A stretch of 64,000 nucleotides of DNA. It comes from Yoonia rosea (GTDB taxonomy: Bacteria > Pseudomonadota > Alphaproteobacteria > Rhodobacterales > Rhodobacteraceae). The stretch covers positions 1,426,001 through 1,490,000 of the forward strand of contig NZ_FTPR01000001.1 in assembly GCF_900156505.1 (NCBI RefSeq). Reading direction: 5' to 3'. Below the pieces are notes generated by a model. That model did not search any database and was not told where the DNA came from. It saw only the letters and a program-made list of their open reading frames with translations. This document shows, piece after piece, positions 8,976-40,366 of this stretch. The position numbers and the translations under genes are program-made. Position 1 is the first letter of the stretch. The number at the start of each line of letters is the position of its first letter.

Positions 8976-10862
8976 TTAGTCCACCAGCTCCCAAGGTATA
9001 GTGTAGGCGTTCAACGCCGTGCCGATTTCTGCATCAGATGCATCACCTGTCTTGACGATATGGGCAACCAAACCGCGCTTTTTATCTTCGCTCACGTCAC
9101 GTACCTCCGCACCAACATCCTTGAGAGCGGCGTTGAAGACGCGGGTGATCGCCAATCTGCGCAGGTCTGGCTTAAAGATTTTTCCAACCGCCGTTTTTGG
9201 CAATTCATCCAATATTCCCAGATACTTGGGATGCGCCGCGCGTTCGTGTACATGTTCCTTGGCATAGGCCATCAGGTCTTCTTCCGTCACCTCTGCCCCA
9301 TCGACAAGTTCGACATAAACGCAAGGGACCTCACCTGCGTGTTGATCTGGCTGACCAATGGCACCGGCAAAGGCCACAGCCTCATGCCCGGCCAAGGCTT
9401 CTTCGATCTCTGCAGGGTCGATGTTATGACCGCCGCGGATGATCAGGTCCTTGGCGCGCCCCGTGATCCAGAGGTAGCCGTCACTGTCGAACCGCCCCAG
9501 ATCACCCGTCCGTAAATATTGCTGGTCAGATTCCTCACCAGGATAGAAAAGGTTCTTGTTCTTGTCGGCCTCGGTATAAGTCTGGCCGCCAAAGACTCCG
9601 GGGTTGGAAACGCAGATTTCGCCGATTTCATCCACGTCGCGGATTTCGCCATCGGCGGGATTGACGATCTTGATGTCTGTGTAGGGGAAAGGCAAACCAA
9701 TGGAGCCGACGCGCTTTTCACCAGCGGGCGGATTGATCGAGACAAGGCATGTCGCTTCGGTCAACCCGTAGCCTTCACAGATCGTGACACCTGCGGCCTC
9801 TTCAAAGCGGCGATAAAGCTCGAGCGGCAGTGGCGCCGAGCCGCAGAAGGCCAGCCGCAATGTGGAAATATCCGCATCGACCTTGCGCTGCATCAGTGCC
9901 GACATGGCCGTGGGCACGGTGATCATGAAGGTCACTTTGTGCTTTTCGATCAGCTTCCAGAAGTTATCGAACACGCCCTCGCCACGATATCCTTGCGGCG
10001 TGGGGAACACGATCTGCGCCCCCGACCCCAGCGACGCGCCCAATGACACGATCGTTGCAAAGACATGAAACAACGGGAGCGGACAGATTTGCACGTCTTC
10101 TTCGGTAAAGAGCAAACGATCGCCCAGCCACGCATTGTAGATGATACCAGAGTACCTGTGCTGCACGACCTTGGGCATGCCCGTGGTACCGCCGGTGTGG
10201 AAATAGGCGGCGACCCTGTCGGTCTTGCTATCCTCAAAATTCAGCGTCTTGGGCAGTTTGTTCATCTCGGCGTTGAAATCAAGCACCTTGGCCTTGTGGG
10301 CAACGGGGTTCTTGGGGCGGATCAGCGGCACGATCAGGCGCTTAAATCCTGTCAGATAGCGGTGCAGATCAACTTCCAGCACATGGGTGACATTGGGGGC
10401 CAGGCGCACGGCCTCGGCGGCCTTTTGGGCGACATCGGTTTTTGGAAATGCCTTGAGGGTGACAAGCACCTTGGCCTTGGTTTCCCGCAGGATGGCGGCT
10501 ATTTGTTCCGCGTCAAGCAGCGGGTTGATCGGGTTCACGATCCCCGCCACCTGCCCGCCCAGATATGTCAGGACCGTTTCGGTCGCATTGGGCATCAGGT
10601 AGGCCACGACATCATCTTCGCCGACACCCAGACTGCGGAACATGTTGGCGGCTTGTGCCGTCTTGTCGCGCAGGGTGTTCCAGTCAAGCGTTTCGCATTT
10701 CGCATCGGGCTCAGAGAACAGGCTGAAGGTGACAGCTTTTCGTGCCCCATGTTTGGCGGCCGTCCGGCAAAGCAGTTCAAAGGTGGTTGTGGCCTTATCG
10801 CGGGCCTCCCACGGCTTTTCGTTTTCGATAGCGTCCCGGTCCGCGACAGTTGCAAAAGCCAT
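8976..10862 (-). CDS. Acyl-CoA synthetase (AMP-forming)
   Basis: This 628-residue adenylate-forming enzyme activates a carboxylic acid as acyl-AMP and transfers it to CoA. It shows the P-loop HTGGTTGMPK (about 218-227), the GYGLTEATCLVSINPP adenine/acyl-binding motif near 368, the TGDLGRFDSDGYLWITGRAKDLIIRGG hinge region near 452-478 and a C-terminal catalytic lysine in PKTAVGKIFK. Length and the absence of membrane segments fit medium/long-chain or aryl acid synthetases; the substrate is not evident. A strong GGGAGGAG site precedes the ATG at 10862. The hydroxyacid dehydrogenase follows on the same strand. Confidence 0.9.
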   Translation of the reverse strand: MAFATVADRDAIENEKPWEARDKATTTFELLCRTAAKHGARKAVTFSLFSEPDAKCETLDWNTLRDKTAQAANMFRSLGVGEDDVVAYLMPNATETVLTYLGGQVAGIVNPINPLLDAEQIAAILRETKAKVLVTLKAFPKTDVAQKAAEAVRLAPNVTHVLEVDLHRYLTGFKRLIVPLIRPKNPVAHKAKVLDFNAEMNKLPKTLNFEDSKTDRVAAYFHTGGTTGMPKVVQHRYSGIIYNAWLGDRLLFTEEDVQICPLPLFHVFATIVSLGASLGSGAQIVFPTPQGYRGEGVFDNFWKLIEKHKVTFMITVPTAMSALMQRKVDADISTLRLAFCGSAPLPLELYRRFEEAAGVTICEGYGLTEATCLVSINPPAGEKRVGSIGLPFPYTDIKIVNPADGEIRDVDEIGEICVSNPGVFGGQTYTEADKNKNLFYPGEESDQQYLRTGDLGRFDSDGYLWITGRAKDLIIRGGHNIDPAEIEEALAGHEAVAFAGAIGQPDQHAGEVPCVYVELVDGAEVTEEDLMAYAKEHVHERAAHPKYLGILDELPKTAVGKIFKPDLRRLAITRVFNAALKDVGAEVRDVSEDKKRGLVAHIVKTGDASDAEIGTALNAYTIPWELVD

Positions 10863-10970
10863 GTCGTCTCCTCCCTGTTTTCTTTTTTTGCAGCGTGACG
10901 CTGCCTCCCTGAAGGAACAGGGTGGTGAAAAACATAAACAATCACAAGTCTGACGCTACGAAAAACGCAG

Positions 10971-12761
10971 CTATTCCGCCGCGACACCTTCTGTGAACTG
11001 CAGCCGCGCCAACCGCGCGTAGAGCCCGCCTTGGGCGACAAGCGCGTCATGTGTACCTTGGGCCGCGATTTTGCCGTCTTCCAGAACGATGATGCGGTCG
11101 GCCTTTTTGACGGTGGCCAGCCTGTGCGCGACAATCAGTGTCGTGCGGGTCCGCGCCAGTTCTTCGACCGCGCGCTGCACCGCATATTCGCTTTCAGCAT
11201 CCAGCGCGCTCGTGGCCTCGTCCAAGAGCAGGATCGGTGCATCGCGCAGAATGGCGCGCGCAATCGCAATCCGCTGTTTCTGCCCACCCGAGAGCATTAC
11301 ACCGCGTTCGCCGACATAGCTTTCAAAACCATCAGGCAACGCTTTGAGAAAATCATAGGCGGCGGCAGCTTTTGCGGCCTCTTCAACCTCGGCGTCGGTG
11401 GCAGTGGGCCGGCCGAAGCGGATATTTTCGCGCGCCGTATCGGCAAAGATCACAGGATCTTGCGGGACAAGCGCGATGTGCTGGCGGAACTCCGAGCGCA
11501 GAAGCTCTCGCAGATCCATGCCGTCGATTTTGACCGCACCGGATTGCGGGTCGTAGAAGCGCTGCACCATCTGGATGATGGTGCTTTTGCCCGCCCCGGA
11601 CGGACCAACGAGTGCAACGGTCTCACCGGCCTTAATCTCAAGGTTGATGCCATCAAGGGCAGAAACCTGCGGCCGGGACGGATAGTGGAACTGCACGTTC
11701 TCGAATTGCAGCGTGCCTTTGACGGGCTGGGGCAATGTCTTGGGCTCTGCAGGATCCTGCACGGTATCTTCGGCGGTCAGAAGCTCGACCAGACGTTCCG
11801 TAGCACCAGCGGCGCGTTGCAATTCACCCCAAACCTCGGACAGGGCCGCGACAGCGCCGCCGACCATGATGGTGTAGATCATGAACTGCACCAACCCGCC
11901 TTCGGTGATTTCGCCGGCGACCACGTCTTGTGAACCCATTTGCAAAAACAACACGATCGCGGCGAAGACCATGAAGATCACAATGGCCGTCAGCGCCGCA
12001 CGCGTCATGATCCGGCGGCGGGCAGAGCGATAGCTTTGCTCGGTGACTTCGTCGAATTTGGCGCGGCTGAGTTCTTCGTGTGTAAAGGCCTGCACGGTTT
12101 GCGCTGACAAGAGCTGTTCGGACGCATCGCCACTGGATTCAGCAATCAGGTCCTGATTTTCCTTGGACAGGCTGCGGACACGGCGACCGAGAAAGAGGAT
12201 CGGGAACAGGACCACCGGGATAGGCCAAAGGACCATCACACTCATCTTGACCGAGGTCAGCAACATCAGGATTACGCCACCGATGAAGATCAGGATGTTG
12301 CGCAATGCGATCGAAACCGAGCTGCCGATGACCGAAAGGATCAATGTGGTATCTGTGGTTATGCGGCTAAGCACCTCACCCGTCATGATTTTTTCGTAAA
12401 ACGCAGGGCTCATGCTGATCATGCGGTTGAATACGGCCTTGCGAATATCTGCGACAACCCGTTCACCTAGCCGCGTGACTAAGTAATAGCGCAGCGCCGT
12501 TCCGAATGAGAGCAGTACAGCGATAATCAGCATTGTCACGAAGTGCTGGCTGATCTCGCCGCTGGCCAGCCCGAAGGTATCAACAACCTGCCCCGCTGCC
12601 ATTGGCAAGCTCAGCGCGACCATGGCTGTAAAAACAAGCGCAAAGCCTGCCGCGATCATGTTGTAGCGGTAGGTTCTCATGAAAGGCCAAAGGGCTTTCA
12701 GCGCGCTGACACGTTTGCCGACGGGCCGATCTTCGGCGGTGGATTTTTGGGTCTCAGCCAT
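10971..12761 (-). CDS. ABC exporter, fused permease and ATPase (MsbA/LmrA type)
   Basis: This 596-residue half-transporter has about six N-terminal membrane segments (residues 25-320). An ATPase domain follows with Walker A GPSGAGKST (near 388), signature LSGGQKQRIAIARA, Walker B ILLLDEATSALDAESE and a switch His in VAHRLATV. It should work as a homodimer in the inner membrane exporting a lipid, peptide or drug-like compound; the substrate cannot be deduced. A GAGGA site precedes the ATG at 12761. The next gene on this strand begins about 108 bases further on, so it may be read from the same message or its own promoter. Confidence 0.92.
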   Translation of the reverse strand: MAETQKSTAEDRPVGKRVSALKALWPFMRTYRYNMIAAGFALVFTAMVALSLPMAAGQVVDTFGLASGEISQHFVTMLIIAVLLSFGTALRYYLVTRLGERVVADIRKAVFNRMISMSPAFYEKIMTGEVLSRITTDTTLILSVIGSSVSIALRNILIFIGGVILMLLTSVKMSVMVLWPIPVVLFPILFLGRRVRSLSKENQDLIAESSGDASEQLLSAQTVQAFTHEELSRAKFDEVTEQSYRSARRRIMTRAALTAIVIFMVFAAIVLFLQMGSQDVVAGEITEGGLVQFMIYTIMVGGAVAALSEVWGELQRAAGATERLVELLTAEDTVQDPAEPKTLPQPVKGTLQFENVQFHYPSRPQVSALDGINLEIKAGETVALVGPSGAGKSTIIQMVQRFYDPQSGAVKIDGMDLRELLRSEFRQHIALVPQDPVIFADTARENIRFGRPTATDAEVEEAAKAAAAYDFLKALPDGFESYVGERGVMLSGGQKQRIAIARAILRDAPILLLDEATSALDAESEYAVQRAVEELARTRTTLIVAHRLATVKKADRIIVLEDGKIAAQGTHDALVAQGGLYARLARLQFTEGVAAE

Positions 12762-12861
12762 GCACTGTCCTCAGGTTCTGGGGATGACATAAAACTGAAC
12801 CAACTGTTTCACAAGGCAACCCTGCGCATCTGCGATATTTTGGTTGTCAGAAAGTGATTGG

Positions 12862-12932
12862 AGCGGGCGGCGGGAATCGAACCCGCGTCTCTTGCTTGGA
12901 AGGCAAGGGTCTTACCATTACACAACGCCCGC
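12862..12932 (-). tRNA. tRNA-Gly(TCC)
   Basis: A 71-nt tRNA on the minus strand has acceptor stem GCGGGCG paired with CGCCCGC and discriminator T. The anticodon arm is CTTGC-CTTCCAA-GCAAG with anticodon TCC, and the T arm is GCGGG-TTCGATT-CCCGC. CCA is not encoded. It lies between the ABC exporter and the SBP56-like gene and shows no sign of integration nearby. Confidence 0.95.
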
Positions 12933-13186
12933 GCACAGTTAGGCATCTATTGCACCGCGGAATTGAGGTCAAGATGTGCAGGTCTCGTGCGCTCGGAATT
13001 TCCGGACCAAACCCAACAATCGACGGATTGCGGCATTTTGCGCCCCCGACCGCACCAACAATATGACTCGGCGTTAAGGCAACTCTGGTGTTAGCGTCTG
13101 GAGAGTTGCAGTCGCTCTGCGCGCCGCCACGCTTTACAACCGAAAGAGGAATACGAAGACATTCATTTCAAACTGGGAGGAACGAC

Positions 13187-14587
13187 ATGAATCTGAGACC
13201 TGACCCGACATTCCACGCGTCACCCAAACTGGCGATGGAAGCGCCGATCGAGAATTATGCTTTTACCGTCATGCTCAGCCCTGATGGATCGCAGTCTGAC
13301 GGTATCGCCGTCATCGACCTTAAACCGGGTTCGGATACCTATGGCCAGATTGTCCATCAGGTGATTGTTCCCAACAAGGGCGACGAGTTTCACCACTTTG
13401 GCTGGAACGCCTGTTCGTCCTCGCTCTCGCCACTGTCAGGACACGCGTTTCTCGAGCGCCGGTACCTCATCGTCCCGGGTATCCGCTCTTCGCGGATTTA
13501 TGTGATCGATGTCAAAGATCCCCTCAAGGCCCATATCCACAAGACGATTGAGCCTGAAGAACTTTTTGCCAAGACCGGCTATTCGCGCCCCCATACAATC
13601 CATTGCGGACCGGAAGGCATCTATGTGTCCTGCCTTGGCGGCGCAGGCAAAGACGGCACCGACGGACCGCCGGGCATCTTTATCATGGACTGCGAAACCT
13701 TTGACATCATCGGCCAATACGAGATGGATCGCGGCAAGCAGGACAAGCACTATGATTTTTGGTGGAACCTGCCGCAGGACTATATGGTCAGTTCGGAATG
13801 GGGCCTGCCGCCACAGTTCGAGAACGGCATCGTACCCGAGGATCTTTTATCCAACAAATACGGCCACTCGATCCACTTCTGGGACCTGCGGGCGCGCAAA
13901 AATATCCAGACAATCGACTTTGGTGAAAACTACCAGATGGCTCTGGAAATCCGGCCGGCGCATGACCCGACCAAATCTTATGGCTTTTGCGGCGTTGTCG
14001 TTGATACCACCAACCTTCAAGGCGCCATCTTTACGTGGTGGCGCGACGAGGATGGCATCTGGCAGGCCAAGAAGACGATCACGATTGACCCTCGCCCCGA
14101 AGATCCGGCCAACCTGCCGCCCCTTTTGCAGGGCTTTGGTGCCGTACCGCCGCTGGTGACCGACATCGACCTGAGCCTTGATGACAAGTATCTCTATGTT
14201 GCCTGTTGGGGCATGGGCGAGATGCACCAATATGACGTCTCGGACCCCATGAACCCCGTCTTGGCGGGCAAGGTCGAACTGGGCGGGATCGCCAAGGGTC
14301 ACAAGCACCCCAACGGCAAAGGCTTTGCTTACGGTCCGCAGATGGTCGAGATCAGCCGGGACGGCAAACGCGTCTATTGGACAAACTCGCTTTATTCGAC
14401 ATGGGACGATCAGTTCTATCCGGACGATGAAGGCGGGCAGATGGTTATGGCCGACGTGGGCGAAAACGGTGGTCTGAAGTTGAACAAGGATTTCTACATC
14501 GATTTCCCCAAGGGCCTGCGCGCGCACCAGATACGGCTTGAGGGCGGAGACTGCTCGACAGATAGTTTCTGCTATCCTTCCGTCTAA
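13187..14587 (+). CDS. SBP56 / methanethiol oxidase (MtoX)-like protein
   Basis: This 466-residue protein belongs to the selenium-binding protein 56 family, which includes bacterial methanethiol oxidase (methanethiol to formaldehyde, sulfide and peroxide). It is recognised from GDEFHHFGWNACSSSLSP (about 60-77), YLIVPGIRSSRIYVID, the SRPHTIHCGPEGIYVSCLGG block, VSSEWGLPPQFENG, KYGHSIHFWDLR and the C-terminal FPKGLRAHQIRLEGGDCSTD. Conserved histidines in these blocks are candidate metal ligands. The start at 13187 has a GGGAGG site. No signal peptide is seen, unlike periplasmic MtoX proteins, so a cytoplasmic place is likely. The next gene begins at the base after its stop. Confidence 0.85.
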   Translation: MNLRPDPTFHASPKLAMEAPIENYAFTVMLSPDGSQSDGIAVIDLKPGSDTYGQIVHQVIVPNKGDEFHHFGWNACSSSLSPLSGHAFLERRYLIVPGIRSSRIYVIDVKDPLKAHIHKTIEPEELFAKTGYSRPHTIHCGPEGIYVSCLGGAGKDGTDGPPGIFIMDCETFDIIGQYEMDRGKQDKHYDFWWNLPQDYMVSSEWGLPPQFENGIVPEDLLSNKYGHSIHFWDLRARKNIQTIDFGENYQMALEIRPAHDPTKSYGFCGVVVDTTNLQGAIFTWWRDEDGIWQAKKTITIDPRPEDPANLPPLLQGFGAVPPLVTDIDLSLDDKYLYVACWGMGEMHQYDVSDPMNPVLAGKVELGGIAKGHKHPNGKGFAYGPQMVEISRDGKRVYWTNSLYSTWDDQFYPDDEGGQMVMADVGENGGLKLNKDFYIDFPKGLRAHQIRLEGGDCSTDSFCYPSV

Positions 14588-15259
14588 GTGCTGGGTGAAA
14601 TGACATCGGTGGCGGCCCTTTGGGGGGCCGTCATTGTTTCTGGTCTATACCACGGGATCAATCCCGGAATGGGTTGGCCACTGGCGGTCTCTGCCGCCCT
14701 GATGGAGCGCCGGCACAAGGCCATGCCAAAGGCGCTGGCGATGCTTGCCTTGGGTCATTTTCTGGCGATGATCGGCATTTTGCTGCCTTTTTCCGTGATG
14801 ATCGCCTTGATCCAGTGGGAAGTCGAAATTCGCATTGGCGCCGGTCTGCTGGTGATCGCAATGGGGTGTTACCTGCTGATCAATCGCAGACATCCGAAGA
14901 TTCTGGCGCGGGTGCATCCCGCGCGGCTTGCGCTTTGGTCATTCCTTGCTGCGATGGCACATGGTGCGGGGCTGATGCTTGTGCCGATCTATCTGGGCAT
15001 TTGTGCGGTCGGTCAGGAAGAAACAGGGCACTTGGCCGCGCAAAGCCTGATGGGCGACAACATTATGACGGCCTTTGCTGTTGCGGCCGTTCACACATTG
15101 TCCATGACGCTCGCGGGCGGGCTGATCGCCGTGGTGATCTATGTCTGGCTTGGCCTGAAGTTCCTGTCGCGGACATGGTTCAATCTGGATGTGGTCTGGG
15201 CGCTCAGTCTGGTTCTGGTCGGTGCGTTCGGCATTTACGCCGCCAAGCTGGGCCACTGA
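14588..15259 (+). CDS. Polytopic membrane protein paired with the SBP56-like gene
   Basis: This 223-residue protein has about six membrane helices and polar histidine motifs inside them: SGLYHGINPGMGW in the first helix, LGHFLAM, AAMAHGAGLM and AAVHTLSM. The pattern of His/Asn/Gly in membrane helices recalls NicO/UreH/HupE-type metal transporters, but no named family is certain. The frame opens with GTG directly after the TAA of the previous gene; an in-frame ATG at 14600 is a possible alternative start. The tight link suggests it serves the SBP56-like enzyme, for example by metal supply or sulfur-compound transport. That is inference. Confidence 0.7.
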   Translation: MLGEMTSVAALWGAVIVSGLYHGINPGMGWPLAVSAALMERRHKAMPKALAMLALGHFLAMIGILLPFSVMIALIQWEVEIRIGAGLLVIAMGCYLLINRRHPKILARVHPARLALWSFLAAMAHGAGLMLVPIYLGICAVGQEETGHLAAQSLMGDNIMTAFAVAAVHTLSMTLAGGLIAVVIYVWLGLKFLSRTWFNLDVVWALSLVLVGAFGIYAAKLGH

Positions 15260-30544: not shown

Positions 30545-30591
30545 TGGTGCCCCCACACGGACTCGAACCGCGGACCTACTGATTACAAATC
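30545..30591. repeat. Left attachment repeat (tRNA-Thr 3' fragment)
   Basis: These 47 bases are identical to 40291-40337. They cover the encoded CCA, acceptor 3' strand, T arm and the anticodon arm up to the anticodon loop of tRNA-Thr. Homology stops after ...ACAAATC, and the 5' half of a tRNA does not follow, so this copy is not a functional tRNA. It marks the left island junction. Confidence 0.95.
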
Positions 30592-30745: not shown

Positions 30746-31936
30746 ATGGCGAACCGTAACAAAACACCTGCAAAAGCGCGCCTCAGTGCAAAATTTATCA
30801 ATAGTCTCGTTGCAGGTGACAGAGACTACTGGATAGCTGAAGAAACCTTCCCAAAGCTGAAGCTCAAAGTAACGCCTTTGGGTAATCGGAGTTTTGTTTT
30901 GCGGTACCGCAACGCGCAGGGAACGGAAAGAAAGCTAAAGCTTGGGGACTTTCCTGACATCAACGCCGACCAAGCCAGACAGCTCGCGAGCCGCTATGCT
31001 GCTGAAGTTGCCAGCGGCGGCGATCCGGCGGCACAAAAGCAGGAAACTCGCCATGGCCTCACGCTGTCTGATCTAGGACAACGCTTCCTTGAGGAACATG
31101 GCGAGTTGCACCTAAAAGCCACAACGCTTCAAAACTACAGACAGATATTGAAAGCCGTTATCGATCCGAGCCTTGGTAAGCAGCCCATTGTCAGTATCTC
31201 GCGGGCGCAATTGCTAACGCTTCAGAAAAGCATGGCGAACAGACGGTATCAGGCCAACCGAACAATCGGTTTCATTCGTACGCTCTATAATTGGGCTAAG
31301 AAGAACGGACTTTATCAGGGCACAGATAATCCTGCACAAGGCATACCGCCATATAGGGAGCGTAAGGTTGAGAGTTTGTTATCAAAGGAGCAGACCGCCG
31401 AACTCTGGGAGGCCATCAAGCAAATTCGGCGAACGCATCCGGGACGAGAAACTGCCCTAAACGTCATAACCTTTTGCTGGCTTACTGCATGTCGTCGAGG
31501 CGAAGCCTTCAAACTCCGCTGGGAAAACGTCGACTTCGAGCGTTCGGAAGTACACTTTGTCGAGGCAAAAGCTGGCAGTCGCAAGCAAAAGATGTCGACG
31601 CAGCTAAAAGCATTTCTAAGTCAGCTCAGTAGTCACGGTAGCGATGCTTATGTGTTCCCAGGAATCAAACGCGATACTCCGTTGACTGACATTAAGAAGA
31701 CTTGGGACCTTGTTAGACAGACCGCGGGGCTCCCAAATTTCCGCCTACATGACATACGGCATAACGTTCTAAGCGATATTGCCGCGGAGTATGACCTTGC
31801 AACGGCTGCTGCTGTCGGCGGACATCAAAGCATCCGATCCACGATGAGGTATGCTCAGGCAAGGCAGCAAACAACGGCTGATGCACTCGAGAGGTTAGGA
31901 AGCAATATTGCAAGGTATACAGAGGAAGATAGCTAA
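30746..31936 (+). CDS. P4-type tyrosine recombinase (island integrase)
   Basis: This 396-residue protein has the N-terminal DUF4102-type arm-binding domain (about 10-95; FINSLVAGDRDYWIAEETFPKLKLKVTPLGNRSF...) and a core-binding helical region (about 105-195). Its catalytic domain carries Arg250 in TACRRGEAF, a beta-hairpin Lys in the 275-282 area, His335-Asp-Ile-Arg338, His360 and Tyr369 in MRYAQA. All catalytic residues are present, so it should be active in integrating and excising the island at tRNA-Thr. It lies next to the left repeat. Its stop overlaps the start of the small HTH gene, a likely partner. Confidence 0.95.
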   Translation: MANRNKTPAKARLSAKFINSLVAGDRDYWIAEETFPKLKLKVTPLGNRSFVLRYRNAQGTERKLKLGDFPDINADQARQLASRYAAEVASGGDPAAQKQETRHGLTLSDLGQRFLEEHGELHLKATTLQNYRQILKAVIDPSLGKQPIVSISRAQLLTLQKSMANRRYQANRTIGFIRTLYNWAKKNGLYQGTDNPAQGIPPYRERKVESLLSKEQTAELWEAIKQIRRTHPGRETALNVITFCWLTACRRGEAFKLRWENVDFERSEVHFVEAKAGSRKQKMSTQLKAFLSQLSSHGSDAYVFPGIKRDTPLTDIKKTWDLVRQTAGLPNFRLHDIRHNVLSDIAAEYDLATAAAVGGHQSIRSTMRYAQARQQTTADALERLGSNIARYTEEDS

Positions 31937-32238
31937 TGCCGCTACCCAAACGTCGAATTCGTCTTCGCCATATTGAAAAGAACAAGACAGGTGTGAAAAA
32001 AGAACAAGCCGCCAAAGTGAAGAAGACTAGGCGTCCGGTTCATACCGCAGCTGGCGAGTTGAATGAGATTGCTGCAGCCGAGTTCTTGAACAAGTCAGTT
32101 CAAACGCTTCGAAACCGTCGCAGCCTCGGAAAACCACCAAAATTCAAACGCGTAGGAAGGTCTGTATATTACATGCTGTCTGATCTTGAAGATTTTCGAA
32201 CAGCAATCACAAGAAACGGAACCATTATTTCGGAATGA
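31936..32238 (+). CDS. Small helix-turn-helix protein (AlpA/excisionase-like)
   Basis: This 100-residue basic protein has a lysine/arginine-rich N-terminus followed by a MerR/AlpA-type wing-HTH: EIAAAEFLNKSVQTLRNRRSLGKPPKFKRVGRSVYYMLSDLEDF (about 45-88). Proteins of this type next to P4-like integrases serve as excisionase or activate int. The ATG overlaps the TAA of the integrase gene (TAATG), so it is translated from the same message. Function as a directionality factor is inferred from position and fold. Confidence 0.8.
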   Translation: MPLPKRRIRLRHIEKNKTGVKKEQAAKVKKTRRPVHTAAGELNEIAAAEFLNKSVQTLRNRRSLGKPPKFKRVGRSVYYMLSDLEDFRTAITRNGTIISE

Positions 32239-32636: not shown

Positions 32637-33335
32637 ATGGATTTTTCGGACAAATATATTTCTTACATTCGTGTCTCGACTGACCGACAAGGAAAAAGCG
32701 GCCTTGGGCTAGAAGCACAAAAAGCGGTTGTCGACGGATTTGTAGAACAATCTGGAGGTCAACTAATTAATGAGTATGTCGAAGTAGAAAGCGGCAAGCG
32801 CAATTCACGGGCACAACTCCAAGCCGCTCTCGAAGAATGCAAGCACAAACACGCCACTCTCATCATCGCCAAGCTAGACCTGCTTGCCCGCAACGTCTAC
32901 TTTATATCCGGTTTGATCGAAAGTGGCGTTCCCTTCCGTGCTGTGGATATGCCCGAAGCAAACCGCTTTGTTCTCCATATCATGGCCGCAGTTGCTGAAC
33001 ACGAAGGCAGGGCAATCTCGGAACGTACCAAAGCAGCCTTGGCAGCAGCAAAAGCTAGGGGTGTTAAACTTGGCAGATCATGCCAAGCACTTGCGGATCG
33101 CAAAATTGCAGATGCCGATGATTTTAGCGATAAGCTGGGGCCTTTGATCAAACAACACAAGATTGACGGGCTGTCGGTTAGAAAAATTGCGAAAAGGCTT
33201 AATTTCGACAAGGTGCCGTCTTACAATGGTGGAAAGTGGTACTCTTCTACAGTTCAACGGGTATGGAAGCGTTACACTAGTCGCAATTCTATAACCATCG
33301 GGAAAACCCCCAGCCCCCCATGTCAAATCCTATAG
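32637..33335 (+). CDS. Serine recombinase (resolvase/invertase family)
   Basis: This 232-residue protein has a catalytic domain (1-145): YIRVSTDRQGKSGLGLEAQ with the nucleophile Ser about 13, the conserved LARN arginine block near 83, and EHEGRAISERTKAALAAAKARGVKLG at the E-helix. A C-terminal HTH region (about 165-222; LSVRKIAKRLNFDKVPSYNGGKWYSSTVQRVW) follows. Length fits small resolvases/invertases rather than large phage integrases. The start has TAGGAG at the right distance. Its last 16 bases overlap the next gene. There is no Tn3-type transposase, so its job (inversion, dimer resolution, a second mobility function) is unknown. Confidence 0.9.
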   Translation: MDFSDKYISYIRVSTDRQGKSGLGLEAQKAVVDGFVEQSGGQLINEYVEVESGKRNSRAQLQAALEECKHKHATLIIAKLDLLARNVYFISGLIESGVPFRAVDMPEANRFVLHIMAAVAEHEGRAISERTKAALAAAKARGVKLGRSCQALADRKIADADDFSDKLGPLIKQHKIDGLSVRKIAKRLNFDKVPSYNGGKWYSSTVQRVWKRYTSRNSITIGKTPSPPCQIL

Positions 33336-34666
33336 TAAGAAGAGACAGTTTTGTTCGATCACTGTCCGCCCAAACCCAGATCACAGCTGAAAATGCTTTT
33401 ATTGATCGCATCCGCCTTGATGTGGGTGATTGGGCGCTTTCCGGTGATACAGATCAAATATGTGATGCTCTCACAAATCTTCGAGAAGCTGAAACCTATA
33501 CGGCTAATGGTGAGTGCGTACAGCTTTTCAACAATCATATCATTGAAGCGATTTGGAATGTCCGAGGGCTAAAATTCAACTCCAACCCAAACAGAGACAA
33601 TTTAGCGCAAAATGCTCCGCTGCTGTCTGGAAAAGTTGACCTAGCAATGTGGCAATATCGACCTGTGAGCCGCCAACCCGGCGAGCAAGCTCGTATCGTT
33701 TTTGAAACCCAATTAAACCTAACCCGTTTCATTCAAGCTCAGCGACTGAAGCGAATAACCCGACTTGATCGGCCAAAACTTGCATCAGAGTATATACTTG
33801 CGATTTCTCCAGAAGAAAGCTGGTATGAAACCGAAACCCCACTGAGACCGGCAACCAACCTGATTATTGGTCCCAATAAAAAGTATGCATTTGCACTTAG
33901 CCAGTCGATGACACAACAACTCGAACACTATTTAACCGTTGCATGTGACACTTTATCGAATGTGATGTTGGAGGCATTTGATGGGTCCAGAGCAACCGCT
34001 ACCCACATCCCCTACTTATCGCTCAAGGAAATTGAGTTTTATTGGGAGTTCGATTCCGATGCGCCAATTGATTGGGTGCTTTCAATGAGGGAAATACTCG
34101 CGCAGCAAAGCGAAAGCTTCGGCGAGGATATGTATCAGACGACACACCCTTCCTTACAAACCCAAAATCAAAGCCCTTGTTTCACACTCCGGATGACACA
34201 ATTCATCAGGATAAAGGTATACGCCAAAACCAATAGACGAGTTCGATTCGAAGTCAAACTGAAAGAAAATGCGATAAACAATACGGCTGGTCGACGAACG
34301 CATGACAGTATCGACGGCGTTTTATCCATGATTGCTCCACTCGCTCAGGAGGCAGCAAAAAGACTGCGACCAGTCCTGCAATCGATTGCAGCGGAGCCTC
34401 AACCGCGGGGCAGTTTTACAGCAGTCGAGCTGATGCACCAAATTCTCCGTGCATCTGACGATCCACACGTCTCCGAGACGATCATCGCGTCCCTTGTAAC
34501 GTTTGGCCGTATCGCACCTTACAATAACGATCCGATCCGTCACGCGATCAAGAAATTAAAAGAACTCAAAGTCCCGATTCTTCGCCCTCGTATCCCACGC
34601 AGCCGAATTTGCGTGGTTACAGACGAATATCGCGACGCTTTGGCCAGCCTTCGGCTTTATCGATAG
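33320..34666 (+). CDS. Uncharacterised 448-residue island protein
   Basis: I do not recognise the family. There is no signal peptide or membrane segment. The segment FIRIKVYAKTNRRVRFEVKL at about 294-313, and earlier ARIVFETQLNLTRFIQ, recall beta-sheet blocks in replication initiators of small phages and plasmids, but no HUH or Tyr motif could be pinned down. The C-terminal part (about 370-440) looks like a winged helix. The gene starts inside the serine recombinase gene, so the two are coupled. It could be an initiator, a partner of the recombinase or a defence component. Confidence 0.75.
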   Translation: MSNPIVRRDSFVRSLSAQTQITAENAFIDRIRLDVGDWALSGDTDQICDALTNLREAETYTANGECVQLFNNHIIEAIWNVRGLKFNSNPNRDNLAQNAPLLSGKVDLAMWQYRPVSRQPGEQARIVFETQLNLTRFIQAQRLKRITRLDRPKLASEYILAISPEESWYETETPLRPATNLIIGPNKKYAFALSQSMTQQLEHYLTVACDTLSNVMLEAFDGSRATATHIPYLSLKEIEFYWEFDSDAPIDWVLSMREILAQQSESFGEDMYQTTHPSLQTQNQSPCFTLRMTQFIRIKVYAKTNRRVRFEVKLKENAINNTAGRRTHDSIDGVLSMIAPLAQEAAKRLRPVLQSIAAEPQPRGSFTAVELMHQILRASDDPHVSETIIASLVTFGRIAPYNNDPIRHAIKKLKELKVPILRPRIPRSRICVVTDEYRDALASLRLYR

Positions 34667-35085: not shown

Positions 35086-36267
35086 ATGAACCAGAACAGA
35101 ACTATCGTCAGCTTGTTTTCCGGCATCGGTGGGTTCGAAGTAGGATTTGCGAAAAGTGGTATTCCAACCTCTTTGGCCTGCGAGATTGAACCCACTGCGC
35201 AACTTGTGCTGAAGTCTCACATTGCCAATACTCGGATCTATGACGACGTGTCCGAGCTGAAGTCCATCCCATCCGCATTTGCTGTTACCGCTGGATTTCC
35301 GTGTCAAAACTTGAGCTTGGTTGGCGATAATAGTGGCATTCAGGGGCGTGATACCAAAATCGTCTTCGACATGTTTTCGCTTGTTGCGAAGTCACCAGAT
35401 CATGAATGGTTAGTTCTTGAAAACGTTCCTTTCATGCTCTGGCAGAGAAAAGGCGAAGCTATTCGTTTTGTAACAGAAAAACTATCCAGTTTGGGCTACA
35501 AATGGGCATACCGAGTGGTCGATGCTAGGTCATTTGGGATACCTCAGCGCAGGAGGAGAGTAGTAATTGTTGCTTCGAAAAAACACGACCCAAGAGATGT
35601 TCTTTTTTCCACGGACTGCGACTCGCCTTCATGGATTGAAGATGATGGCAAAGTTCCTTGCGGTTTCTCATGGACCGAGGGTCGGTATGGTCTAGGGTGG
35701 GCTCCTAATGGTGTGCCAACAATCAAAGGCGGTTCGAGGATAGGAGTGCCTTCTCCTCCCGCGATTTGGTTTCGAGATACTGGCCTGATTGGCACACCAT
35801 CCATTGAAGACGCAGAAAGGCTTCAGGGTTTTGATGCGCATTGGACAAAAGCTGCAACAGGCCCGAAAGGGCAACTTGGAGCCCGATGGAAACTGGTGGG
35901 AAACGCCATACCTGTGGGAATCGCTGATTGGGTCGCTCGGCAACTTGTTAGCCCAGGGACATTCTTGCTGGATGATCGAGTTAAAGTTTGGAAAAGTAGG
36001 ATCTGGCCGAATGCTGCATACGACGTCGGCGATGGTGTCATGAAGGTAGACATTGGTGAGTTTCCAGAAAAACACCAATGCGAAGGGCTCAGCAAATTTC
36101 TTTGCTTCCCAGTTAAGGAGCTTTCAGAGCGCGCATCCCTAGGATTTCTCAAGCGAGCTAGAGAAGGAAAGCTTCGGTTCAAGGATGGCTTCTTAGACGC
36201 AGTAGAGCAGCATGCTAACACAATGTCTCAGAAAAATTATGTAGCTGCCCGTACTGCGGCAGAATGA
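35086..36267 (+). CDS. DNA (cytosine-5) methyltransferase 1
   Basis: This 393-residue C5 methyltransferase has motifs in order: I IVSLFSGIGGFEVGF (7-21), IV AGFPCQNLS with catalytic Cys73, VI LENVPF (Glu112), VIII GIPQRRRRVVIVA (151-163), a target-recognition region of about 165-240, IX RLQGF (245-249) and X VGNAIP (271-276). About 110 residues follow motif X, an unusual tail that may contact a partner or DNA. It lies 12 bases before a second C5 methyltransferase on the same strand. Together with the convergent McrB/McrC-like genes this looks like an LlaJI-type system, in which each enzyme would modify one strand of an asymmetric site. Confidence 0.93.
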   Translation: MNQNRTIVSLFSGIGGFEVGFAKSGIPTSLACEIEPTAQLVLKSHIANTRIYDDVSELKSIPSAFAVTAGFPCQNLSLVGDNSGIQGRDTKIVFDMFSLVAKSPDHEWLVLENVPFMLWQRKGEAIRFVTEKLSSLGYKWAYRVVDARSFGIPQRRRRVVIVASKKHDPRDVLFSTDCDSPSWIEDDGKVPCGFSWTEGRYGLGWAPNGVPTIKGGSRIGVPSPPAIWFRDTGLIGTPSIEDAERLQGFDAHWTKAATGPKGQLGARWKLVGNAIPVGIADWVARQLVSPGTFLLDDRVKVWKSRIWPNAAYDVGDGVMKVDIGEFPEKHQCEGLSKFLCFPVKELSERASLGFLKRAREGKLRFKDGFLDAVEQHANTMSQKNYVAARTAAE

Positions 36268-36279
36268 CGGGTCGTTCTT

Positions 36280-37581
36280 ATGAATTACGAAAGTAAACGG
36301 GACTTTGCTACAGAAAAACCCGGCGTTCTGAAAGAGTCATTCACTACCGACGGCCAACGTATCTTTCGGAGAGTTCACGATACGGATGGAAACGAACTTT
36401 CTCGAAGCGCTGTCGGGTTAAACTGCTCTTTGGAAGGGAAAACTCAACTAGAGCTTTCAGGGTTGTTTTACCAGCATTGGTTGCGCCTCAAGAATCCAAT
36501 CGAAAGCAATCCTCAACGGGGGGCAATGCGAATAGTTGATCTTTTTGCTGGTTGCGGAGGGCTTTCACTTGGAATTGATGAAGCCGCAAAAGCGTGCGGT
36601 TTTAGACCCCAGCACCAGTTCTTTTCCGAGATTGATAGCAAGATTGCAGACGTCTTCTCAGAGAATTTCTCCACGTTGAACGGGCATGTTGGTGACATAT
36701 CGGAACTTATCGACGGTGTTATAGGAGAGCGCCCGACCTCCGCAGAAAATCATTTTATTAGTCACGTAGGTAGCGTTGACTTGCTTTGTGGAGGGCCTCC
36801 TTGCCAAGGTTATTCTGACCTAAACAATTATACTCGCCGCGACGATCCAAGGAACTCACTTTATTTCTTAATGGCTCGCGCCGCCGAGCTTTTGAAACCA
36901 AAGGCACTTCTAATTGAAAATGTTCCGGGCGTCTTGAAGGATCGGACAGGGAGCTATCAGTCTACGATCTCAAATCTAATTGCGCTTGGCTACAAAATTG
37001 AAACTATCACCCTCAATGCATCTAGTTTTGGAGTTCCTCAAAGCAGGAAAAGAACATTCTTGTTTGCTGCACGATCAGTTGAGCAAGCTACCAACTGGCG
37101 AAGGTCAATTGAAGAACTCAAAAGTAGCAATCTGCGAAACCCGCTTTGGGCTATTTCCGATATTTCGGAATACACAGAGAGCCAAGGCTTTCGGGCCCCA
37201 TCCAAGCTCTCAGCAGAAAGCAAAATGCGGGTAGACTGGCTTTTTGAAAACGATGAGCATGAGTTGCCCGATCGACTTCGACCGGACTGTCATCGTTTGA
37301 AATCCCATAGCTATAACTCAGTTTACGGCAGGATGTATGCGGAAGGATTGGCACCAACGATCACGACGGGCTTCTTGGTCATGGGACAGGGACGTTTCAT
37401 TCACCCCACAAAACGAAGGACCTTAACCCCTCATGAAGGCGCTCGGTTACAGACATTTCCTGACTACTTCAAATTTGGAACACAGATACGGTCAAAATAC
37501 GCAAAGATGATCGGAAATGCAGTCCCACCGCTATTCGCATATTATGTTGGCTTGGCTACGATTCATGCGGCCATTGACTAA
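36280..37581 (+). CDS. DNA (cytosine-5) methyltransferase 2
   Basis: This 433-residue C5 methyltransferase has an N-terminal extension of about 80 residues before motif I (MRIVDLFAGCGGLSLGID, 83-100). Then come IV GGPPCQGYSD with catalytic Cys175, VI LIENVPG (Glu213), VIII FGVPQSRKRTFLF and X IGNAVPP near 408. It differs clearly from the first enzyme, so the pair is not a recent duplication. Its last 51 bases overlap, in antisense, the end of the convergent McrC-like gene, which ties expression of modification and restriction genes together physically. Confidence 0.93.
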   Translation: MNYESKRDFATEKPGVLKESFTTDGQRIFRRVHDTDGNELSRSAVGLNCSLEGKTQLELSGLFYQHWLRLKNPIESNPQRGAMRIVDLFAGCGGLSLGIDEAAKACGFRPQHQFFSEIDSKIADVFSENFSTLNGHVGDISELIDGVIGERPTSAENHFISHVGSVDLLCGGPPCQGYSDLNNYTRRDDPRNSLYFLMARAAELLKPKALLIENVPGVLKDRTGSYQSTISNLIALGYKIETITLNASSFGVPQSRKRTFLFAARSVEQATNWRRSIEELKSSNLRNPLWAISDISEYTESQGFRAPSKLSAESKMRVDWLFENDEHELPDRLRPDCHRLKSHSYNSVYGRMYAEGLAPTITTGFLVMGQGRFIHPTKRRTLTPHEGARLQTFPDYFKFGTQIRSKYAKMIGNAVPPLFAYYVGLATIHAAID

Positions 37582-38607
37582 TAGTAGTAGCTCGCCTTCT
37601 ATTTCGTTCCATTTTTTGTTTAGGTTGATTGTACAGACGGAAAAGTGGTGCCCAAGAGTTGAGAAATCTAACCTCAAATCCTCATCAATCCTTGGGTAAA
37701 GCAACATTCCAGAAACTGAAAGATCGGAACTAAGCGTACTTTGATGCGATACATAAGCCTGGATCTGATAAAAGTGATCTGATCTAATACGTTTTGAGCC
37801 AAATCTTTTCTGGAAAATTGACCCTGAAAACTTTGTATCTATAATCAGTACGCAGTGGTCGCCGAAAACGGAAACATCCGTTTGCATTGACGGAATCAGA
37901 CTTCGAAGCCGAGGTAGAACCTCCAACCCCACAGGTGCAAAACGCTTGGATGCAATCGAATATCTCGACCCTAACTTTGCCTTCAAAAAATTTCGAACAA
38001 ATGCCTCAAACAGTCTCCGCATCGCCAATTCATCATTTATGTAGTCGCTAAACCAACGCAATCCTTTACCATCGGACACGTACATTTGGTCAAATAGAAG
38101 CTCACATAGCGCCAAAGGAAACCGATAGCGTCGCATAGAACGATCTAGGTTAATTGCCGCAAACCGGCGCTTTGAAAGCGGAACATCAGCAACAACTTTG
38201 AGCATTTTGAATATTTTAGCGGCCTGTTCTCGGATGCCCTGATCGATTGATCGATTGGACACAAGGGCCTTGAATGTTGCTTTAATTATTTGGTTTTCTA
38301 TACCATCCACTTCCATGCTTGGATAATGACAAATCAGCATCCCAGCTCTGAAATCCGGGAGTAGAGTGGACCGCGTTACGTCAATTTTGCCACGTACTCC
38401 ATGCATGCGCTCAGTCCTAAAACCGTGCTTCTTAGCTAGAGATTCACGAAGAATTTCTTGTGTCGCCTCGCACAGCATGGATGCAAGGAAGTCAACCGGG
38501 GCCTCAATGTCAGACGCTTGAAGTGTCTTGAGGCTGCCCGGTCGAAACTCTCCCCATGCATAAACAAACATGTGAAAGAAATTGAGAACTGGGATTTGAA
38601 CAGCCAT
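37531..38607 (-). CDS. McrC-like restriction nuclease subunit
   Basis: This 358-residue protein is of the McrC/5-methylcytosine restriction type. The N-terminal part (VLNFFHMFVYAWGEF..., 8-20; HGVRGKIDVTRS, 69-80) matches McrC-like proteins that activate the McrB motor. The C-terminal PD-(D/E)XK nuclease core has Asp244 in MQTDVSVFGD and Asp257-Thr-Lys259 in VLIIDTKF. It starts 5 bases after the McrB-like stop, so both subunits come from one message. In LlaJI the matching R2 protein is the cleavage subunit. The 3' end overlaps methyltransferase 2. Confidence 0.9.
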   Translation of the reverse strand: MAVQIPVLNFFHMFVYAWGEFRPGSLKTLQASDIEAPVDFLASMLCEATQEILRESLAKKHGFRTERMHGVRGKIDVTRSTLLPDFRAGMLICHYPSMEVDGIENQIIKATFKALVSNRSIDQGIREQAAKIFKMLKVVADVPLSKRRFAAINLDRSMRRYRFPLALCELLFDQMYVSDGKGLRWFSDYINDELAMRRLFEAFVRNFLKAKLGSRYSIASKRFAPVGLEVLPRLRSLIPSMQTDVSVFGDHCVLIIDTKFSGSIFQKRFGSKRIRSDHFYQIQAYVSHQSTLSSDLSVSGMLLYPRIDEDLRLDFSTLGHHFSVCTINLNKKWNEIEGELLLLVNGRMNRSQANIICE

Positions 38608-38612
38608 CCGCG

Positions 38613-40088
38613 TTAAACCTGCGGGTCGCTTTCTTCGCCTAATGGCGACTCTGGAACAATTACTAACGGTTCTTTTAGCAATGCCAGTTGTTCAGTTACT
38701 CTTTCTTCATCATCCATCCAATAATCGCGCAGAAGCGGTTCTATTTCATGTTTGACTATGTTGGAGTACCAGTCCTCTGGCGACTGATCCTTGGGTATAA
38801 AACCACAGAAATAGCTATGACCCAATTCAAACCCCGGGCCCAGCGCTCGCGTATCTTCCGTAATTACTCTGTTCAGATTCAAAAATCGCTCCGACACTTC
38901 GTCTATTAGTCCAGAGGGCACACAATTGCGGGACAAGAATTCATGAAACTCAGCAGTCCCGTATGCGGGCTCTAGATCAATAAAAGAGAAACGGCGGCGC
39001 AACGCATAGTCGATAATCGAAAGTGACCGATCCGCAGTGTTCATAGTAGCCACAACGAATACGTTCTTCGGTACAAAGAACGTTCGCTCGTTTTCAGGGT
39101 CCGTGTAAGCTAAAGAGACGGCAAACTCGCCATCTCTTTTTGTAGCTTCAATTAGTGACAAGACTTCGCCAAAAACTTGTGAGACATTCGCCCTATTGAT
39201 TTCATCGATGAACACAACATATGGGTCGCCTTGGTTTTCTCTGGCTATATCACAAAACTTTAAGAAGGCCCCCTCCAAGACGCGGAGATTGCCCTCACTT
39301 GAGGGCCTCCAACCGACAACAAAATCTTCATACGAGTAAGCCTGATGAAACTGTAAATTTAGAACCCGACTTTGATCAAGTGCCGTTTCATTTGAAATGC
39401 TTTTCCCGACCACAGTCTTGCCAGTGCCGGGCGGGCCTTGGAGACAGATGCACTTTTTGCGCATCAACTCTGATCGAATAGTCCGTCTTGTTTTCTCTAA
39501 AAGAAATACTCCATCGGCCACTGGATCATCGTAGTCACTGAGATTCTTTGTTAGGTTCCTCCGATCACGGACTTTTACTTCTTTTGCTTTTGAAAAATCG
39601 TAGTCTAAGAATTCACAAATACCTTGAGCAGTTTTACGTTGATCTTTGTCGAAGTAGACCCCAATGACCCGCCAATCTGGTTTGGCGCCAATAAAAACGG
39701 AAATGCCACCTAAAATATACGCGTTTCGATCCATGTAGCTGAGGATTTTTGAGTAGGTTTCGGTCTCACCAGTACATCTACCGACAAACACCCAATCAAG
39801 CATTTCGACATCAGACCGGACTCGCTCAGCGATTGTTTCACTTGCAGCCCTTCCAGTCTGTTTGTCATCATTGAGTGCACGGATACTGATATGATTTCGA
39901 GGTATGCCAACTGCTTTCGCGAGGGGCCCAGCAAACGCGTCTCTTTGGCTGTCCGTTAACTGGTTCCGGCCACTATCACTTGTACCACTTCCTCCGAGAT
40001 TTTCGTAAAGGTCTCTCAGGTTAATTTTGGGCTCTGTTACTGCTTCGTTTCCGCCTCCCACCAAATCAGCCTCAGTCTGTTCATTCAT
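38613..40088 (-). CDS. McrB-like AAA+ GTPase restriction subunit
   Basis: This 491-residue protein has an N-terminal specificity-type region of about 190 residues that I cannot assign. A McrB-type AAA+ motor follows: Walker A GPPGTGKT (218-225), Walker B VVFIDE (291-296), the McrB signature MNTADRS (349-355) and an arginine-rich sensor YALRRRFSF. A frame extension to 40106 exists, but GGGAG in that stretch is well spaced from the ATG at 40088. Next to two C5 methyltransferases the protein is closer in context to R1 of LlaJI, which cuts unmodified sites, than to the methylation-dependent McrB of E. coli. Confidence 0.9.
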   Translation of the reverse strand: MNEQTEADLVGGGNEAVTEPKINLRDLYENLGGSGTSDSGRNQLTDSQRDAFAGPLAKAVGIPRNHISIRALNDDKQTGRAASETIAERVRSDVEMLDWVFVGRCTGETETYSKILSYMDRNAYILGGISVFIGAKPDWRVIGVYFDKDQRKTAQGICEFLDYDFSKAKEVKVRDRRNLTKNLSDYDDPVADGVFLLEKTRRTIRSELMRKKCICLQGPPGTGKTVVGKSISNETALDQSRVLNLQFHQAYSYEDFVVGWRPSSEGNLRVLEGAFLKFCDIARENQGDPYVVFIDEINRANVSQVFGEVLSLIEATKRDGEFAVSLAYTDPENERTFFVPKNVFVVATMNTADRSLSIIDYALRRRFSFIDLEPAYGTAEFHEFLSRNCVPSGLIDEVSERFLNLNRVITEDTRALGPGFELGHSYFCGFIPKDQSPEDWYSNIVKHEIEPLLRDYWMDDEERVTEQLALLKEPLVIVPESPLGEESDPQV

Positions 40089-40190
40089 CCCTAATGCTCC
40101 CAGCATTGCGTCAACACATTTATCTGCGCAAGTATGCGAGATTGCTACGATAGTTGCAGGTACGGTTGCAATTCCTTTATAGGAACGACT

Positions 40191-40290: not shown

Positions 40291-40337
40291 TGGTGCCCCC
40301 ACACGGACTCGAACCGCGGACCTACTGATTACAAATC
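40291..40337. repeat. Right attachment repeat within tRNA-Thr
   Basis: This is the 47-bp copy identical to 30545-30591. It forms the 3' part of the intact tRNA-Thr gene, so integration restored the tRNA. The crossover must lie within these bases. Confidence 0.95.
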
Positions 40338-40366
40338 AGTTGCTCTACCAGCTGAGCTATAGGGGC
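40291..40366 (-). tRNA. tRNA-Thr(TGT), island integration site
   Basis: A 76-nt tRNA on the minus strand begins GCCCCTATAGCTCAGCTGGT. Its anticodon arm is ACTGA-TTTGTAA-TCAGT (anticodon TGT), with a normal T arm and encoded CCA (plus-strand TGG at 40291-40293). Its 3' 47 bases are duplicated at 30545-30591 by island integration. Confidence 0.96.

Follow-up and report, generated by a model that had tools for sequence, protein, structure and literature searches.

How can the genes of an McrBC-type nuclease reside beside those of two enzymes that write 5-methylcytosine (5mC), the very mark at which E. coli-type McrBC cuts DNA? This question is raised by a four-gene locus of Yoonia rosea (Rhodobacteraceae), located at positions 35086 to 40088 of the 64,000-nucleotide stretch analyzed here (hereafter the window). 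Given two resident 5mC writers, either their methylation lies outside the sites of McrB or McrB is blocked by methylation. We favor the second option because the two writers are co-conserved and the presumed reader, the N-terminal domain of McrB, is, by profile, unlike DUF3578. The comparisons presented below make it fairly probable that, in this locus, a McrBC of the canonical branch has been converted, separately from LlaJI and BsuMI, into a mobile and self-protecting restriction system that is blocked by modification.

The first two genes, M1 (35086–36267, plus strand, 393 amino acids (aa)) and M2 (36280–37581, plus strand, 433 aa), encode cytosine-C5 DNA methyltransferases supported by matches to PF00145 (139 and 194 bits, respectively) and to the PADLOC model MTase_II (379 and 353 bits). 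As the earlier note had observed, they are two different enzymes, with 26% identity across 187 residues, and their motifs are intact, namely Cys73 (GFPCQ) and Cys175 (GPPCQ), ENV, QRRRR/QSRKR, and GNA(I/V)P. On the opposite strand, mcrC (37531–38607, minus strand, 358 aa) encodes a nuclease subunit that matches PF10117 (82.8 bits, cut-off 23.9) and the PRK09736 McrC model (242 bits, below its equivalog cut-off of 338) and that possesses the PD-(D/E)xK residues D244...D257-x-K259. It is preceded by mcrB (38613–40088, minus strand, 491 aa, or 497 aa if an in-frame upstream ATG at 40106 is used), which encodes a McrB-type GTPase with an AAA_5 motor (78 bits) containing the GPPGTGK, IDE, and MNTADRS motifs and the NxxD signature. 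All four reading frames are open. The methyltransferase genes point rightward and the nuclease genes leftward, and M2 and mcrC share 51 bp at their converging 3′ ends. The PADLOC protein models gave zero matches for McrC and at best 39 bits (E 0.001) for McrB; with such weak matches, systems of this kind may be under-counted.

The composition of this locus recalls that of LlaJI from the Lactococcus plasmid pNP40, and of BsuMI and the H. pylori LlaJI system, which also combine two C5 methyltransferases, a McrB-like specificity and motor gene, and a McrC-like PD-(D/E)xK gene, probably with the same logic. The earlier note had, on these grounds, filed the locus under LlaJI. We compared it with LlaJI itself (L025) and with three loci annotated as LlaJI family (L022, L026, and L027; L027 has one annotated C5 enzyme, and L022 one C5 and one Eco57I-type enzyme), and that filing did not survive. 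The McrC protein yielded no alignment with the pNP40 R2 subunit at E 10 and no match to PF09563 (RE_LlaJI) at E 1, a family also without any match in the Y. rosea genome, whereas the positive controls, B. subtilis and pNP40 R2 (109 bits), were recovered. By contrast, it aligned at E 1e-52 with a Roseomonas McrC encoded next to a DUF3578-containing McrB. Likewise, the McrB protein is 41% and 42% identical to two canonical McrBs (E 3e-71 and 1e-70) versus 25–32% to the four LlaJI R1 subunits (E 1e-8 to 2e-16). In a maximum-likelihood tree of 35 motors, which included 12 of 18 metagenomic clusters with the same N-terminal domain and in which the tool flagged long branches, the four LlaJI R1s were split from the 31 others, the window protein among them, at 100/100. 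The layout differs as well, LlaJI having four similarly oriented genes (PMC1459862) and the window convergent and overlapping ones. The nearest solved relative is E. coli McrBC, with chains 6hz4_A for McrB (E 3e-73) and 6hz4_M for McrC (E 4e-43); a whole-protein fold search, which probes the motor only, pointed to it as well. Judged by its sequence, the nuclease is a canonical-branch McrBC; the designation LlaJI-like stands for composition and probable logic but not for ancestry.

What distinguishes this McrB is its N-terminal domain (approximately residues 20–175), which we regard as a putative reader of a DNA site. The earlier note had found this region unrecognizable and we concur, since residues 1–195 have no convincing Pfam or PDB sequence match and no Pfam match at E 1 lies wholly inside them. 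When a structural model of the domain was compared with PDB chains, none of them matched its fold clearly, an absence that excludes nothing. In a set of 11 such domains, no Pfam match to DUF3578 or YTH/EVE was obtained at E 1, and a profile comparison (hhalign) with eight DUF3578-type N-terminal regions gave about 0.1%, both profiles being small. In the motor tree, the window protein groups with ten McrBs carrying this domain at 97/91, with the cluster P0074 adjacent (92/92); two other clusters (P0017 and P0018) are placed elsewhere, so that the N-terminal domain and the motor perhaps do not always travel together.

The same four genes occur in the same convergent order, with other surroundings, in Peteryoungia ipomoeae (Rhizobiaceae; locus L010), with mcrB at 10025–11437 and mcrC at 11434–12540 and, on the opposite strand, M2 at 12465–13748 and M1 at 13745–14920; there, M2 and mcrC overlap by 76 bp. 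The identities between the two loci are 62% for M1, 55% for M2 (372 residues), 43% for McrB, and 32% for McrC. Because both the gene order and the tail-to-tail M2/mcrC overlap recur, the four genes look like a unit. A control points in the same direction: none of eight McrB loci without the N-terminal domain, taken from 331 plasmid records, had an M1- or M2-like match (E 1e-5), whereas L010 has both. Next to the Peteryoungia mcrB, just upstream and divergent, lies a Vsr-like frame (9460–9891, minus strand, stop to stop) that aligns with an annotated Vsr at 36% identity across 113 residues. In the window a search for Vsr gave no significant match, and none passed E 0.001 in the Y. rosea genome.

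A scan of the genome_contigs collection with the alignment of the N-terminal domain yielded 50 pattern matches that reduced to two loci, L010 and one in Ruegeria atlantica (L009, 10001–10327); no relative was found in viral_contigs, and Y. rosea stood alone among 385 genomes of the class and 299 of the phylum, in scans resting on short patterns that can miss relatives. The Ruegeria locus contains just a truncated piece of the domain (query residues 22–126) followed by an integrase-like open reading frame (ORF) on the other strand, and its 20 kb have no match to M1, M2, McrC, or the McrB motor. When the McrB alignment was run against 60 genomes, that of Y. rosea included, it matched at full length in the latter only, 34 others giving weak partial matches (up to 55 bits) to the motor part. 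Metagenomic proteins provided 18 clusters of McrBs with this domain (P0002–P0018 and P0074). Two of them share the exact size of their longest contig with an M1 relative (P0009 with P0192, 19,146; P0018 with P0223, 21,425), in a comparison that took in 119 of 120 entries listed for M1 and a protein search that gives no gene context. As a control, the sizes were offset by 1 to 200 in both directions; coincidences then averaged 0.23, and 7 of 400 shifts reached two. Since the contigs are short and the clusters hide members, this sharing of contig sizes is weak support for linkage.

The methyltransferases themselves offer a further indication. Among the matches listed, the nearest relatives of M1 reach 72% identity, and the only one with readable neighbors, that of Peteryoungia (62%), is linked to mcrBC; this agrees with the earlier note in making a modification-blocked system probable, as far as sequences can tell. 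We delimited the presumed target-recognition stretch of M1 as residues 176–239, between motifs VIII and IX and excluding the conserved RLQGF at 245 (the cut is our own), and compared its identity with that of residues 1–175. It is 78 versus 62% for L010, 84 versus 67% for P0192, 61 versus 54% for P0223, 77 versus 75% for P0188, and 58 versus 55% for P0238, compared with 44–50 versus 42–49% for three Vsr-linked relatives. M2 shows a like tendency between its specificity and catalytic parts (59 versus 54% for L010, 46 versus 43% for L017). Conservation of the specificity stretch thus equals or exceeds that of the catalytic part. The effect is clearest where a relative is associated with a McrB carrying this N-terminal domain, which suits a shared recognition site.

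Taken together, these data lead us to propose that the system probably cuts unmethylated invading DNA while host DNA is marked as safe. M1 and M2 would place 5mC on both strands of one recognition site, probably an asymmetric one because two different enzymes have been kept. The McrB N-terminal domain would read this site when unmethylated, after which the McrB ring would translocate using GTP and McrC would cut, presumably in defense against phages. The convergent overlap of M2 and mcrC might cause transcriptional interference that damps or delays the nuclease upon entry into a new host. LlaJI provides a precedent, as it restricts unmethylated DNA and has two methyltransferases, with R1 setting specificity and binding probes that contain the LlaJI site (PMC1459862). 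When a genome acquires the methylation that McrBC reads, the nuclease can be lethal to its host (PMC2614495). The Vsr-like frame at the Peteryoungia locus and the Vsr-linked relatives of M1 hint that the methyltransferases write a 5mC requiring mismatch repair. A broader scenario is conceivable, which we offer tentatively: McrBC restriction of unmethylated DNA would have arisen at least twice, once in LlaJI/BsuMI and a second time in the branch of canonical, E. coli-like McrBs to which the window belongs, where the methyl reader would have been swapped for a site-reading domain of new fold and two C5 methyltransferases captured from a Vsr-linked pool.

Several observations weigh against a modification-blocked system. 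Between the window and L010, which is the one complete locus readable beyond the window, McrB and McrC have diverged more than M1 and M2, and 16 of the 18 metagenomic clusters have no contig-size match to an M1 relative. Use of GTP does not follow from the LlaJI precedent, since R1 and R2 are both required in vivo but in vitro the study detected no cleavage and no GTPase activity (PMC1459862), and the site-reading role of the N-terminal domain is proposed for a domain with no fold match. In addition, McrB or McrC was matched in none of ten loci with M1 relatives at 41–47% identity (one of them, L071, on a short contig), which came from six of ten plasmid records (M1 coverage at least 80%) and from all four other genomes in which one was found among the 385 of the class; eight of these ten have a Vsr match (in L016, about 2 kb away). 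As distant M1 relatives do not stand beside mcrBC, M1 and M2 must have been recruited to it, perhaps as mere passengers. The earlier note had counted nearest relatives unlinked to McrBC, together with a methyl-reading McrB domain, as grounds for refutation; the nearest readable relative is linked to mcrBC.

This last group of observations also feeds a reading in which the parts are co-located but independent, two methyltransferases of the Vsr-linked pool having landed beside a McrBC in which the N-terminal domain responds to a signal that is not a DNA site. The distant relatives of both M1 and M2 occur with Vsr genes, and some with helicase genes, without mcrBC, and the lack of a fold match for the domain would fit. 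We nevertheless hold it quite improbable, because the four genes, their order, and their overlapping ends are common to the window and to a Rhizobiaceae genome. Nor do we expect the locus to belong to the LlaJI/BsuMI subfamily proper, a highly improbable option despite the equal composition and the name of one M1 relative (P0238, 55% identity), ‘putative BsuMI modification methylase subunit YdiP’. It would have to accommodate the missing PF09563 and the position of McrB outside the LlaJI R1 group, and M1 and M2 are 22–29% identical to the six C5 enzymes encoded at the four loci of the LlaJI family (32% in one 96-residue alignment). Moreover, the N-terminal regions of McrB and of the four R1s have no profile likeness (about 0.1% with hhalign), in a comparison of four LlaJI-family loci, BsuMI proteins not being among them.

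The alternative that retains the known activity of canonical McrBC is a type IV, modification-dependent nuclease that is blind to the marks of the two methyltransferases traveling with it, the pair competing with other methylation systems. Its motor and nuclease do belong to the canonical type IV branch; linkage of McrBC with methyltransferases is frequent and competition was proposed to explain it in 2008 (PMC2614495), and a 2024 census in eLife (PMC11090510) reports that several branches of McrB are associated with methyltransferases. Other DNA methyltransferase genes are annotated near three of our eight control loci (type I in L024, and L076 and L080), and a fourth (L023) has a class I S-adenosylmethionine-dependent methyltransferase with no target stated. 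However, many of the enzymes linked in 2008 were type I and some type IIG (PMC2614495), whereas those in the window are two writers of 5mC, canonical McrBC's own mark. The N-terminal part of McrB also has no likeness to DUF3578, as far as small profiles can tell. We therefore consider this alternative rather unlikely and retain the modification-blocked system.

How does such a system relate to those already described? With E. coli K-12 McrBC, a type IV system with DUF3578, it shares the motor, the nuclease, and the MNTADRS motif, as well as D244, D257, and K259, which are numbered alike in E. coli; it differs in a McrB without DUF3578 match and in its two accompanying 5mC writers. LlaJI, for its part, has a PF09563-type R2 in place of a PF10117 McrC, a motor on a separate branch, and methyltransferases that are alike only in a generic way. 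The R1 of H. pylori LlaJI has a B3 domain (PMC7680126, PMC12707154); the window domain has no profile likeness to LlaJI R1 N-terminal regions. In the McrB tree of the 2008 study, LlaI, BsuMI, and LlaJI form a subfamily described as type II R-like (PMC2614495). The Vsr-linked C5 methyltransferases of Nocardia, Burkholderia, and Sinorhizobium loci belong to the M1 family but have no mcrBC match beside them in the ten loci retrieved, and the window differs from them in giving no significant Vsr match, unlike the Peteryoungia locus. Closest in outline are the NxxD branches of the eLife census, which share the NxxD motor and neighboring predicted DNA methyltransferases, an association called likely ancestral there and reserved for later publication (PMC11090510); the window system may well belong to this branch. 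Methyltransferase-linked canonical McrBC is thus already known in outline; searches of open-licence papers gave no description of the particular set seen here, a C5 pair with this N-terminal domain. If our reading is true, the McrBC motor and nuclease would be a modular chassis whose polarity, cutting methylated or unmethylated DNA, was reversed repeatedly in evolution as readers were exchanged and writers acquired. The N-terminal domain would then offer a reader to solve structurally.

The mobility of the system is suggested by its location on a 9.7-kb island, in agreement with the earlier note, which had placed the full set of four genes on an island at tRNA-Thr. Both borders are 47-bp direct repeats: the right one (40291–40337) is the 3′ part of a tRNA-Thr(tgt) gene (40291–40366, minus strand, detected with ARAGORN), which serves as the integration site, and the left one (30545–30591) is its exact copy. 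The G+C content of the island is 47.2%, versus 56.6 and 58.3% in the neighboring DNA. A congener (G006) has the empty site, its right (C3:699178–700341) and left (C3:700342–701352) flanks abutting with 0 bases between them and a single copy of the repeat. The island extends to the left of M1 and contains there, all on the plus strand, genes for a tyrosine integrase (30746–31936, 396 aa; Phage_integrase PF00589, 60 bits; Arm-DNA-bind_3, 57 bits), a small helix-turn-helix protein that may be excisionase/AlpA-like (31936–32238; HTH_17, 23.7 bits, under the curated cut-off of 27), a resolvase-type serine recombinase (32637–33335, 232 aa; Resolvase PF00239, 87 bits), and a 448-aa protein (33320–34666) without functional assignment and with zero matches in Pfam, PADLOC, and NCBIfam.

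The 448-aa protein is probably a core gene of the element lying outside the restriction-modification unit. We set it aside as a system component because it occurs in an element of another Rhodobacteraceae genome (G557; L021, 3435–10090) without tblastn match to M1, M2, McrB, or McrC. A role as phage-type replication initiator, suggested by a motif, found no Pfam or convincing PHROG support among 17 members. Its family comprises 67 proteins found, the window protein included, with a conserved YAKTNRRVRFE stretch, and the 11 entries with a named organism come from genera such as Roseovarius, Sulfitobacter, and Ruegeria. In the G557 element, the integrase (50%), the serine recombinase (54%), and the 448-aa protein (31% identity to those of the window) accompany a different cargo, a DUF6994 gene, and the three together possibly mark a group of related small integrative elements that differ in what they carry.

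On two Bosea plasmids (L012 and L014, about 4.8–8.1 kb), an M1-family methyltransferase gene stands beside hypothetical genes on the other strand, in a like arrangement; neither Vsr nor mcrBC was matched there, and the genes may represent a further restriction system. The tRNA-Thr(tgt) site also varies within the genus, as read in two further genomes (L063 and L064). In G018, about 14 kb of DNA with other genes separates the flanks, and no integrase was seen among ORFs of at least 150 aa; in G002, an integrase 27% identical to that of the window and a type ISP restriction enzyme lie beside a copy of the 47-bp repeat.

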